From positions 1 to 64,000 of the forward strand of contig JAFLJQ010000267.1 of assembly GCA_022712915.1 (NCBI GenBank): a stretch of DNA of 64,000 nt. The letters are read 5' to 3'. This document shows, in pieces, positions 50,907 through 55,519 of the stretch. The position numbers were made by a program, and so were the translations under genes. Numbering within the stretch: position 1 is the first letter of the stretch; every line of letters starts with the position of its first letter. The stretch is from Gammaproteobacteria bacterium (GTDB lineage: Bacteria > Pseudomonadota > Gammaproteobacteria > UBA6429 > Thiohalophilaceae). Below the pieces are notes generated by a model that worked only from the letters and a program-made list of their open reading frames with translations, was not told the origin of the DNA and did not search any database.

Positions 50907-51267
50907 GGGGGCGACCTGGCTTCGACGCGGGTTACAAAACCGGAGGTGCATGCCGAGGTGCAGAGGACCTCGTAAATCCATCTGCAAAAAATATAGTTGC
51001 CAACGACGACAACTACGCTTTAGCTGCTTAATAACCAGCGTAAAGCCTTCGGCCTGAGGTGTGCTTGTACGCGCAGATAACCGGAGTCATCCCATACAAG
51101 ATCGCGCGGAAACACGTCCGGGGTGGAAGCGCTAAAACCTAACGGAATCGTTGTCGGTGATCCTCGCCTGTTGGGCAACCGCCAATTAAATTAAAAAACG
51201 GGATAAGCATGTAGAGCCAAAGGCAGAGGACTGGCGGACGCGGGTTCGATTCCCGCCGCCTCCACCA
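50907..51267 (+). ncRNA. ssrA: tmRNA
   Basis: Transfer-messenger RNA of 361 bases. The 5' end GGGGGCGACC pairs with the 3' CGCCTCC before the encoded ACCA, and the T arm GCGGGTTCGATTCCCGC is intact. The internal frame at 50999-51031 encodes ANDDNYALAA followed by tandem TAA stops (resume codon GCC), a variant of the ANDENYALAA tag. Pseudoknot regions are plausible but were not folded. smpB is immediately upstream. Confidence 0.97.
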
Positions 51268-51293
51268 ATTCAATGTTTCATAACATCTCATAA

Positions 51294-51337
51294 TGACCCG
51301 CTAGGCCTTACATAGTAACGGTTTAGCGGGTTTTTTA
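51294..51337 (+). terminator. Intrinsic terminator of tmRNA
   Basis: ACCCGCTA...TAGCGGGT stem with a loop of about 20 bases, followed by TTTTTTATT. It lies 27 bases after the tmRNA 3' end. Confidence 0.8.
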
Positions 51338-51757
51338 TTGCCTATAACACTCTAAGAAGACCTAAGAAATCCCTCTATTTTAGTTGCACCATGTTGCTAC
51401 GACTAAAAGCGGTACTGCTAAGATGGCACGGACAACCAAACCACTACAAACTCTTCATATCTATTCTGATAAACATATAAAAAATTGATGAATTCCCATT
51501 TAAAAAAAACCGTAAAGACTACAGAATGACCTCAAGCTCCAAAACACGAGGTGATCTGGCGAATGAGTACTTTGTTGTTTCTGACATGGCTCTTCCTCTG
51601 CTCGGGTAAGAGCATTCAAAATGCTATGTCACTAATAATTTAAATATCAAGAACCTTGTCTAAACAGCCTTCAAGATAAATCACCAATTGATATAATATT
51701 CGGCTCCAATTACAGATATTAGATCCAACAATTCCAAATAAAACATAAATTCCAGGC
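51338..51757. other. Noncoding region after ssrA with a possible integrase relic
   Basis: About 420 bases without a gene. At 51423 an ATG opens MARTTKPLQTLHIYSDKHIKN and a stop. The first eight residues equal the typical start of P4-type integrases, which often insert at ssrA. The rest shows nothing recognisable and is AT-rich. Confidence 0.5.
51423..51488 (+). pseudogene. Possible N-terminal scrap of an ssrA-specific integrase
   Basis: MARTTKPL is a frequent first octapeptide of island integrases of the DUF4102 type. The frame then loses similarity and stops after 21 codons. The site, about 155 bases after the tmRNA 3' end and in outward orientation, is where such an integrase would start. 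Eight matching residues is limited evidence. Confidence 0.4.
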
Positions 51758-51781
51758 AAAAAAAAGCGACGTCCCGTCGCT
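51758..51781 (-). terminator. Intrinsic terminator of the Csr-type RNA
   Basis: AGCGAC and GTCGCT form a perfect six-bp stem closing a GGGAC loop, followed by TTTTTTT on the minus strand. The loop itself displays a GGA, so terminator and CsrA site coincide. Confidence 0.85.
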
Positions 51782-51984
51782 CTTATAAGATCCCTTCAGG
51801 CTGTCCAGCCCGTTTTTATAATGACCATGTTACTTCAAGTTGAACTTTCATCCCGGCTTCCTGCCGCTACTTAAGTTTCCATGGTGACCATCCATGACAG
51901 GCGCTCCTGCCTGAGTCACGATTCCCTGTGATGTATCCGGTTTATATATCCACCGCGCATATCCATACAGAACACTGGTGAATA
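51758..51984 (-). ncRNA. CsrB/RsmZ-like small RNA (CsrA antagonist)
   Basis: The minus strand carries about 12 GGA triplets in about 210 bases, many in the loops of short perfect stems: CAGGC-AGGAGC-GCCTG, CGGC-AGGAA-GCCG, GGCT-GGAC-AGCC, TCAC-AGGGAATC-GTGA and AGCGAC-GGGAC-GTCGCT. The last is followed by seven T and forms the terminator. Repeated loop-exposed GGA with an intrinsic terminator is the architecture of CsrB, CsrC and RsmX/Y/Z RNAs, which sequester CsrA/RsmA. No reading frame is present. The 5' end is inferred from the promoter below; I did not find a clear GacA/UvrY box. Confidence 0.78.
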
Positions 51985-51990
51985 ACTCAT

Positions 51991-52018
51991 AGTCTAGCCA
52001 TGCCCATAAAAAAATCAA
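51991..52018 (-). promoter_or_regulatory. Possible promoter of the Csr-type RNA
   Basis: On the minus strand TTGATT (52013-52018), 16 bases, TAGACT (51991-51996). The predicted start near 51984 precedes the first GGA motif by about 20 bases. The match to consensus is moderate. Confidence 0.4.
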
Positions 52019-52127
52019 TGCTTATATAAAATATATTTGCTTGACTTGGCACGAAATATGACCAAAATCACATTTTTGGGTGGTTTCTTTGTCGTAGAGG
52101 TGCCATTTCAAAGACTTTCCTGATGTG

Positions 52128-52162: not shown

Positions 52163-55100
52163 ATGCAGCCAACCCAAATCAAAATCGAAAATGCCACTGT
52201 TCATGCCTCAGCAGGCAGTGGTAAAACATATTTACTGGTCAGTCGCATTATCCAGTTATTATTAAATGGTACCGAGCCTGGCACCATCCTGGCAATCACG
52301 TTTACCCGCAAGGCCGCGGCAGAAATGCAGCAACGATTGTTGCAACGCTTGTTTGAACTGGCTGCGACCAGTGATGCACAGCTACACACACACCTTGAGC
52401 GATTAGGTGCCTGCTGTGAGGCCGGCACTCTGCAACTGGCACGCAAGCTTTATGAGCAACTGCTGATAACAGAGCATCCTGTGACAACGACAACATTTCA
52501 TGCCTTTTGTCAGGATCTATTACGCCGCTTTCCACTGGAAGCCAATGTGCCTGCGGGTTTTGAGCTGCTTGAGCATACCAGCAGCTCACAGGATGAGGCC
52601 TGGGAGGCACTAATGACCGAGGCAGCAGAGACAATAGATGGTTGTTTAGCTCAAGCACTCGATCAATTATTTCAAAAACTCACGCTCAATAATGCCCGTC
52701 AGGCCCTGATGAGCTTTGTCCAACAACGCAGTGATTGGTGGGCCTGGACTGAACAACAAACAGATGCATTGGCCTTTGCCGGTCAGCGGCTGGCGACACA
52801 ATTAAATGTTGAACCTGATAGCGATCCCTTACAGGCATTTTTTGACGAGCAGAAAAATATATCAAACTGCCAACAGTATCTTGCCTATGTTTTAAAACGT
52901 GATAACAAAACCCACCAGAAGCTGGCCATACAGTTGGAAAATGGACTTGATGAACAGCTAGAACTCACCACTCGGTATCAAACTATCCGTGAAACCTTTC
53001 TGACCCTAAAAGGCGAACCACGCAAGCTCAAACCCAGTAAGGAAATGCAAAAGATCTACGGTGAGCAGGGCAGCAATGATTTTATCGAGCTTCATAGCGT
53101 GTGTGCGACCAGCATTCAGGCCACGGATGATCAACTGGCCGCACAGTATACCTGGCAGATCACCACAGCCTGGTATTTGGCCGGCCATCACCTGTTGCAA
53201 CACTATCAGCGGATCAAGCTGGAGCAGCGCCTGTTGGACTTCACGGATCTGGAATGGAAGAGTTACCAACTACTGACCCAAAGTGACAATGCCAGTTGGG
53301 TGCAATACAAGCTCGATAACCGCATCAAACATTTATTGATTGATGAATTTCAAGATACCAACCCAACTCAATGGCAACTGGTTCTACCCTTACTGGAAGA
53401 ATTCGCCAGCAAACAGCAAGAAGATGCCAGTAGTGTCTTTTTGGTGGGTGATGCCAAGCAATCGATCTATCGCTTTCGTCGTGCCGAACCGCGCCTGTTC
53501 AAAACTGCCAGTGACTGGTTGCAGTCCAATATGCAATCTAACAAATTACCATTAAATAAATCCTGGCGTTCCTCCCTGGCCATTATGGATTTTGTTAACC
53601 GGCTATTTGGTAGCGGTATACTCAACCAACAGCTCACGGATTTTATCCCTCATGAGACCGAGCATCGGACATTATGGGGACAAGTCAGATTGTTGCCACT
53701 AATCAAAGCTGAAGAAAGAGATGAAATCATTCATGCCGAGCTACGCAATCCAATCACAACCCCTCTCAATGCCGATGAGGACAAGGATCAACTAACCGAA
53801 GGCCAGCAGGTTGCCGATACAATACACCGACTGATTGAACAACAAACCCAGCTTGGGCAAGAAAAAAACGCCCACACAATTCATTATCGCGACATACTCA
53901 TTCTGCTGCGCTCCCGTACCCATGTTAGAGAATTCGAACAGGCCTTACGGCATAAAGCTATTCCCTATCTGGGTGCAGAACGCGGCACCCTACTTGAAGC
54001 TGTGGAAGTCATTGATATGGTCAAGCTATTGCAATGGCTACTATCACCCTACGATAACCATGCCCTGGCCAGTATCTTGCGCTCCCCCTTATTCGAAGCA
54101 AACAATGATGAGCTGCTTTTACTGGCAAATACTGGTAAGGGCCCCTGGCAAGATCGGCTCACCCATGTTACCGATGAATTGCCAATAGGCTCACCGCTAA
54201 TTCGTGCCCACAAGCTACTTGGCCGCTGGCAACAAATGGCGGGGCATATCCCGGTGCATGATTTGTTGGATCGCATCTATAGCGAAGCCAATGTATTGGC
54301 CCGCTATACGGCGACTTTTCCTGCCAACCTCAAATCCAGAGTCAGCTCAAACCTGATCCGCTTTCTGGAACTGGCTCTGGAAATTGATAGCGGCCGCTAT
54401 CCCAGTCTGACACGCTTTATTAAGTGGCTGGAAGACTTGCGCCAAAAATCAAACGAAGCCCCCAATGAAGCACCCAGTCAGGGCCAACAAGATCGTGTAC
54501 GACTGCTCACTATCCATGAAGCCAAAGGACTTGAGGCTGCCGTGGTATTTCTAGTAGATAGCGCCCGACCCTTGCAACGTAAAACAGCTTATGAGGCACT
54601 AGTAGACTGGGCCGACTCACAAAATCGTCCCGAAACCTTTTTGCTCACAGGTAAAAAAGACACGTTAGATCCATACAGCCGACAAAAACAGCAACACCTA
54701 TTTACACTGGAAGATCGAGAAGAATCTAACTTACTTTATGTTGCTGTGACACGTGCAAAGCAATTATTGTATATCAGCGGCACAGAAGCTTCGCGCAAGG
54801 CCAGCCGTTCCTGGTATGACACCATCAGTCGGCAATATGAGCTTGAGCCAGAACAAATTATTGAAGAACAATGTCTACAAAAATCCGGGAACATTCCCTG
54901 TGTTGTCTTACCGCAAAATAAGGTCAAGCAAACCACTATTAATATCGATCCACATTTAAGTGCAGCCATCAAGCTCACAAGCCCGTTCAAAGAAATCGCC
55001 CCAAGTCATACGGTTAATGTCCAAGAGGCAAACAACACACTCGATGAGGAAGGATGTCTGCGGGGACTGCTTATACATGCCATGTTGGAGAACATGACAC

Positions 55101-55519
55101 AAGACAAAGAACCGTCCCCGTCCCGGCTAGCACAACAATTTGGTCTTGAGGAACATGCTACGCAATTTCAAAGCTGTCTAGCAGAAACTAGACATCTACT
55201 TCAACAACCGCAATTACAATTGCTGTTTGATAAGCAAAACTATGATGCAGCTTACAATGAGGTGCCGATTAGTTATGAGCTAGGTAATTGCATGGTATAT
55301 GGAATCATTGACCGACTGGTGATAACGGACGAACAAGTCTTACTAATTGATTACAAAACACACCGTTTAGAAGCAGAACATTTTCATAAATTGGTCGAGG
55401 CCTATAAACCTCAACTCAATTTATATGTAGAAGGGATCAAAAAAGTATGGCCAAAGTATGCTATTAAACCCTATCTGCTATTCACACACTCAGCCACACT
55501 TTTGCCGGTAGCCTTATAA
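52163..55519 (+). CDS. addA: AddA-like UvrD-family helicase-nuclease
   Basis: Superfamily 1 helicase of 1118 residues with a C-terminal nuclease domain, as in AddA/RecB-type double-strand-break repair enzymes. Walker A is HASAGSGKTYLL (about 14-25), then AITFTRKAAAEMQQRL, TTFHAFCQDLLRRFP, DEXX box LLIDEFQDTNPTQW, VGDAKQSIYRFRRAEP, HEAKGLEAAVVFLVD and VAVTRAKQLLYISG. Near the end, LLIDYKTHRLEAEHF with a preceding HAMLE gives the PD-(D/E)XK nuclease site. No addB partner is adjacent: upstream lie the tmRNA and a small RNA. Similarity to RecB cannot be excluded without alignment. Confidence 0.85.
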   Translation: MQPTQIKIENATVHASAGSGKTYLLVSRIIQLLLNGTEPGTILAITFTRKAAAEMQQRLLQRLFELAATSDAQLHTHLERLGACCEAGTLQLARKLYEQLLITEHPVTTTTFHAFCQDLLRRFPLEANVPAGFELLEHTSSSQDEAWEALMTEAAETIDGCLAQALDQLFQKLTLNNARQALMSFVQQRSDWWAWTEQQTDALAFAGQRLATQLNVEPDSDPLQAFFDEQKNISNCQQYLAYVLKRDNKTHQKLAIQLENGLDEQLELTTRYQTIRETFLTLKGEPRKLKPSKEMQKIYGEQGSNDFIELHSVCATSIQATDDQLAAQYTWQITTAWYLAGHHLLQHYQRIKLEQRLLDFTDLEWKSYQLLTQSDNASWVQYKLDNRIKHLLIDEFQDTNPTQWQLVLPLLEEFASKQQEDASSVFLVGDAKQSIYRFRRAEPRLFKTASDWLQSNMQSNKLPLNKSWRSSLAIMDFVNRLFGSGILNQQLTDFIPHETEHRTLWGQVRLLPLIKAEERDEIIHAELRNPITTPLNADEDKDQLTEGQQVADTIHRLIEQQTQLGQEKNAHTIHYRDILILLRSRTHVREFEQALRHKAIPYLGAERGTLLEAVEVIDMVKLLQWLLSPYDNHALASILRSPLFEANNDELLLLANTGKGPWQDRLTHVTDELPIGSPLIRAHKLLGRWQQMAGHIPVHDLLDRIYSEANVLARYTATFPANLKSRVSSNLIRFLELALEIDSGRYPSLTRFIKWLEDLRQKSNEAPNEAPSQGQQDRVRLLTIHEAKGLEAAVVFLVDSARPLQRKTAYEALVDWADSQNRPETFLLTGKKDTLDPYSRQKQQHLFTLEDREESNLLYVAVTRAKQLLYISGTEASRKASRSWYDTISRQYELEPEQIIEEQCLQKSGNIPCVVLPQNKVKQTTINIDPHLSAAIKLTSPFKEIAPSHTVNVQEANNTLDEEGCLRGLLIHAMLENMTQDKEPSPSRLAQQFGLEEHATQFQSCLAETRHLLQQPQLQLLFDKQNYDAAYNEVPISYELGNCMVYGIIDRLVITDEQVLLIDYKTHRLEAEHFHKLVEAYKPQLNLYVEGIKKVWPKYAIKPYLLFTHSATLLPVAL

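Follow-up and report, generated by a model that had tools for sequence, protein, structure and literature searches.

A predicted GGA-rich RNA gene beside addA

The window, i.e., the whole 64 kb stretch of DNA that was analysed, carried on its minus strand a predicted small RNA (sRNA) gene between a tmRNA gene and the DNA-repair gene addA, which encodes an AddA-like helicase (Table 1). A preliminary description of this DNA had noted about a dozen GGA motifs there. The count was 12 triplets within the 227 nt, and against a strand mean of 3.1 GGA per 225 nt (sd 1.9), the locus was the sole site in the window, on either strand, with at least 11 per 225 nt. The intrinsic terminator with a GGGAC loop was present as described, its T run extending down to 51758, and the predicted promoter placed the +1 close to 51984, the start that had been proposed. 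A strong inverted repeat on the plus strand just past the tmRNA gene (51290–51345, ACCCGCTAGGCC...GGTTTAGCGGGTTTTTT) is probably the tmRNA terminator.

Table 1. Position, strand and supporting evidence of features at the sRNA locus
Feature	Position	Strand	Evidence or remark
tmRNA gene, convergent neighbour	50907..51267	plus	not conserved in relatives
Predicted Csr/Rsm-type sRNA gene, predicted transcript ~227 nt	51758..51984	minus	GGA peak, predicted promoter, terminator, homologues in 35/40 family genomes
Intrinsic terminator AGCGAC-GGGAC-GTCGCT + T run	51758..51781 (stem-loop 51765-51781)	minus	6/6 stem pairs covary
Conserved core, covariance model R1 match of 147.8 bits	51765..51932	minus	model search and covariation
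Hairpin CGGGC-TGGACA-GCCTG, then AAGGGA	51797..51812	minus	GGA in 30/30 homologues; best-conserved element
Hairpin CGGC-AGGAA-GCCG	51854..51866	minus	perfect stem, GGA in loop; covariation
CATGG...CCATG stem with GGA sites at 51893 and 51880	51880..51896	minus	sequence and pairing ensemble
Hairpin CAGGC-AGGAGC-GCCTG	51898..51913	minus	GGA in 27/30 homologues; perfect stem, GGA in loop
Hairpin TCAC-AGGGAATC-GTGA	51916..51931	minus	GGA here in 30/30 homologues; perfect stem, GGA in loop
Predicted sigma70-type promoter TTGATT-16-TAGACT	51991..52018	minus	+1 near 51984; consensus match only
Putative CRP-type palindrome TGTGATTTTGGTCATA	52057..52072	minus	centre ~80.5 nt upstream of predicted +1
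AddA-like helicase gene, divergent from sRNA	52163..55519	plus	conserved neighbour

Folding, which the preliminary description had proposed as a check, indicated that the sRNA strand was more stable than its shuffles (z = -2.4, 4/200, from the single sequence). The exposure of GGA in loops, also claimed there, was seen in five perfect stems, that of the terminator included, but the sites at 51951 and 51853 were mostly paired in the single-sequence ensemble.

Conservation and gene neighbourhood in the Thiohalophilaceae

Searches with blastn revealed diverged copies of the sRNA in congeners and in other genera, and no match to it among plasmids. A covariance model built from nine diverged copies had exactly one match each in 35 of 40 Thiohalophilaceae genomes, which are also every genome of the order in the collection. 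Within a 369-genome sample of the class, matches were confined to family members and one marginal case. Weak matches in Akkermansiaceae (L056), Desulfonema (L059) and genome G138 (L080) were taken as chance. A pattern scan of named genomes recovered Thiohalophilus thiocyanatoxydans, a cultured species of the Thiohalophilaceae, Thiohalomonadales (NCBI taxonomy), and many uncultured Gammaproteobacteria. The predicted RNA of T. thiocyanatoxydans is at L068:887-1046. Among the five family genomes with no model match, one is explained by its addA lying at a contig end, and two of genus g8 were nearly complete; in these two the sRNA may be truly absent or present in a diverged form.

Two-sided changes were found at 20 of 28 base pairs among 30 homologues, with 94% of pair cells standard, in an alignment fitted to the covariance model, which favours covariation counts. 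The covariation values were reached by none of 500 shuffles, and the signal was lost on sliding the pairing partners. The unfitted alignment of nine sequences had two-sided changes in 8 of 24 predicted pairs. GGA started at the same columns in 30/30, 30/30, 27, 26 and 19 of the 30 homologues. With 231 occurrences in 29 homologues, it was the most frequent trinucleotide, and its mean unpaired probability there was 0.72, compared with 0.14 for GGC, 0.27 for GGT and 0.49 for GGG. These comparisons point to a structured RNA with GGA loops as its conserved core. Chance, or a purine-rich sequence without function, would be compatible with the modest single-sequence z-score (-2.4), but is rendered vanishingly improbable by the family-wide, one-per-genome conservation, the covariation and the fixed GGA sites.

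In 27 of 32 compared loci, a homologue of the AddA-like helicase had its gene upstream of the RNA in divergent orientation, and in 20 of the 32 a second shared protein was encoded downstream, reading toward the RNA. The downstream ORF in Thiohalophilus looks AddB-like, PD-(D/E)XK nuclease motifs having been recognised in it by eye, so that the RNA there appears to be flanked by addB and addA and encoded on the other strand. The tmRNA gene occupies the position of this addB-like neighbour in the window's genome. Thus, both neighbours named in the preliminary description were present, yet addA is kept in relatives and tmRNA is not, and a functional linkage of tmRNA and sRNA was rejected for that reason.

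A stand-alone intergenic RNA with a terminator could also be a base-pairing (Hfq-type) trans-acting sRNA or a leader RNA, with GGA present incidentally, and the conserved GCCUGAAGGG stretch could pair with mRNAs too. Conservation, however, was centred on the loop GGA while flanks and stems varied, and GGA counts were far above chance; a leader is moreover argued against because the shared neighbouring genes are all on the other strand. This explanation is therefore considered very unlikely.

Relation to known Csr/Rsm RNAs and CsrA

The preliminary description had suggested an RNA outside existing models, and the Rfam searches bore this out. At gathering threshold, only the tmRNA and a tRNA were matched in the window, and the local stretch searched at E-values up to 10 returned no Csr/Rsm family. 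The sRNA was below gathering threshold with the CsrB, CsrC, RsmX/Y/Z and TwoAYGGAY covariance models, while Escherichia coli csrB, the positive control, scored 380 bits with RF00018. Membership of these Rfam families was thus rejected.

The sRNA resembles CsrB/CsrC of Escherichia (RF00018, RF00084) in its many GGA in hairpin loops, its intergenic position and its intrinsic terminator, and csrA and a uvrY-like gene are likewise present in the window's genome. It differs in the lack of a covariance-model match in either direction (csrB was absent from the matches of the model built here), in length (~227 nt versus 369 nt for CsrB), in the number of GGA (12 versus 22, PMC11882849), in its locus at addA, and in having a CRP-like rather than a UvrY box. 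The NGGA hairpin-loop design is shared with RsmX/RsmY/RsmZ of Pseudomonas (RF00166, RF00195), from which the sRNA is set apart by the absence of any Rfam match, even sub-threshold, by its locus, and by the lack of a GacA box in the Thiohalophilaceae. Comparable, too, are Pf1/Pf2/Pf3 of Pseudoalteromonas, lineage-specific Csr sponges found via GGA motifs, promoter and terminator and then experimentally verified, although these are of a different lineage and sequence, and neither addA linkage nor a CRP site is mentioned in the available portion of that report (PMC11882849). A literature search returned no paper connecting CsrB with addA, nor Thiohalophilus with a small RNA.

TwoAYGGAY (RF01731, in clan CL00106 together with CsrB) also presents GGA in hairpins; the sRNA itself was unmatched by it, and matches in a congener lay elsewhere, in many copies. 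There were 11 and 12 copies in genomes G001 (L006:1919-2057 and other contigs) and G027. The L006 copy was bordered by long inverted repeats, which suggests a dispersed mobile repeat with GGA hairpins and not a cis-regulatory RNA. TwoAYGGAY was rejected as a second Csr RNA of the genus, as none was found in the window's own genome and the many copies in a congener look like such a repeat.

The genes that the preliminary description had proposed to look for, csrA and gacA/uvrY, were searched in the window's genome. Two canonical CsrA proteins scored above the curated cut-off, and the gene for one of them follows an aspartokinase-like gene. A third, divergent CsrA-like protein of 70 aa (~32 bits) was encoded at L003:1462-1674 (G000:C210). 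The UvrY/SirA/GacA-like regulator was present at 261 bits, slightly under its curated cut-off of 280, and a CRP orthologue scored 363 bits against a cut-off of 266.

Comparative data for a structured RNA with a core of GGA loops support the CsrB/RsmZ-type reading first offered for this locus, and the sRNA is very probably, judging from its sequence, a CsrA sponge new to RNA model libraries. The stand-alone RNA of ~227 nt would bind CsrA dimers at its GGA loops (~8–12 sites), and this titration would lower free CsrA and relieve CsrA repression of target mRNAs. Family genomes would carry a single such sponge gene each, oriented head to head with addA and, in many relatives, flanked by addB on its other side.

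The upstream element and the same locus in other families

Of the 9,216 gapped palindromes compared in the regions upstream of 30 Thiohalophilaceae loci, the top-ranking one was TGTGA-N6-TCACA (13 versus 8 for the next). It was matched at ≥9/10 positions in 13 of these loci, compared with ~0.2–0.3 in shuffles, although loci within one genus are not independent of each other. At least six genera had sites at ≥9/10, several of them with perfect copies, and about one third of family loci had no clear site. The distance to the predicted sRNA -10 was constant within genera: in the window's genus the palindrome centre lay 80.5 nt before the predicted start in 3/3 members, and in six loci of genus g14 this spacing was 58.5 nt. 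These spacings differ by two helical turns, and both are compatible with class I CRP activation. The GacA box TGTAAG-N6-CTTACA was not enriched in the Thiohalophilaceae (mean 7.83 versus 7.69 in shuffles), reaching ≥10/12 in 1/30 loci.

Similar RNAs were found in two genomes of another family with a second covariance model. In a class-wide sample of 30 addA loci, a terminator preceded by at least 7 GGA was found on the strand opposite addA in 12, and on the other strand in none of the 30. Three of the 12 were Thiohalophilaceae and nine came from families f90, f56, f35, f123, f125 and f83; an f65 locus (L142), alike by eye, is a possible seventh further family. No Rfam match was obtained for the RNAs of other families where tested. 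L120 was rejected, as its plain GGA count was reached via coding sequence and the terminator test failed. Upstream of addA in L136 (f125) lay a terminator-ended GGA-repeat region with ~20 or more GGA over ~330 nt, resembling a CsrB-sized version at the addA locus. The sequences are too diverged to prove that all these RNAs are homologous; kinship across families is argued from shared position and design, and the Thiohalophilaceae sRNA would on these grounds be orthologous to the others.

The GacA-box mean at eleven loci of other families was 8.91, versus 7.43 ± 0.22 in shuffles, and the CRP box was not enriched there. The best GacA-type boxes (TGTAAGCATAAGCTGACA, TGTAAGCATTTTCTGAAA, TGTAAGAATTTTCTGAAA) resemble the upstream box of Pseudomonas fluorescens rsmY, TGTAAGCATTCTCTTACA (PMC4353343).

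The Thiohalophilaceae RNA might still be a CsrA sponge that is controlled by GacA/UvrY in the ordinary way, with the TGTGA palindrome serving addA regulation or representing a degenerate GacA box. Such an arrangement would fit the GacA-like gene in the genome, the divergent orientation of sRNA and addA, the degenerate right half of the palindrome in some loci (genus g14), and the GacA-like boxes of the addA-linked RNAs of other families. The lack of GacA-box enrichment in the Thiohalophilaceae, the CRP-like N6 spacing with perfect copies in several genera, and the constant distance to the sRNA -10 within genera make it rather doubtful.

Control of the sponge promoter by CRP through the putative site is instead regarded as just probable. 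The promoter would be controlled by CRP via TGTGA-N6-TCACA in the Thiohalophilaceae, and by a GacA/UvrY-type box elsewhere; transcription, CsrA binding, and CRP control together with its sign are inferred. As the palindrome sits between divergent genes, it may serve addA instead or as well. In Salmonella, CsrC is repressed by CRP via Spot 42 (PMC7591399), and in Yersinia, CRP acts on csrB through UvrY, with specific binding to csr promoters not detected (PMC3523269). A conserved CRP site replacing a GacA box would be a wiring unlike these CRP–Csr links.

The sponge promoter was probably rewired from GacA to CRP in the Thiohalophilaceae. The broader proposal, that many gammaproteobacterial families share an ancient Csr-sponge gene fixed next to addA and missing from RNA libraries, and that a CRP box took the place of its GacA box in the Thiohalophilaceae, stands at even odds. 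Lack of sequence conservation makes Csr sponges difficult to detect, and a fixed address beside addA would offer a route to them in lineages without models, e.g., sulphur-oxidising Gammaproteobacteria. GacA-type and CRP-type boxes at one locus would allow a direct test of whether a global post-transcriptional regulator has been rewired. If the proposal is true, carbon status (cAMP), and not the Gac signal, would directly drive CsrA titration in the Thiohalophilaceae.
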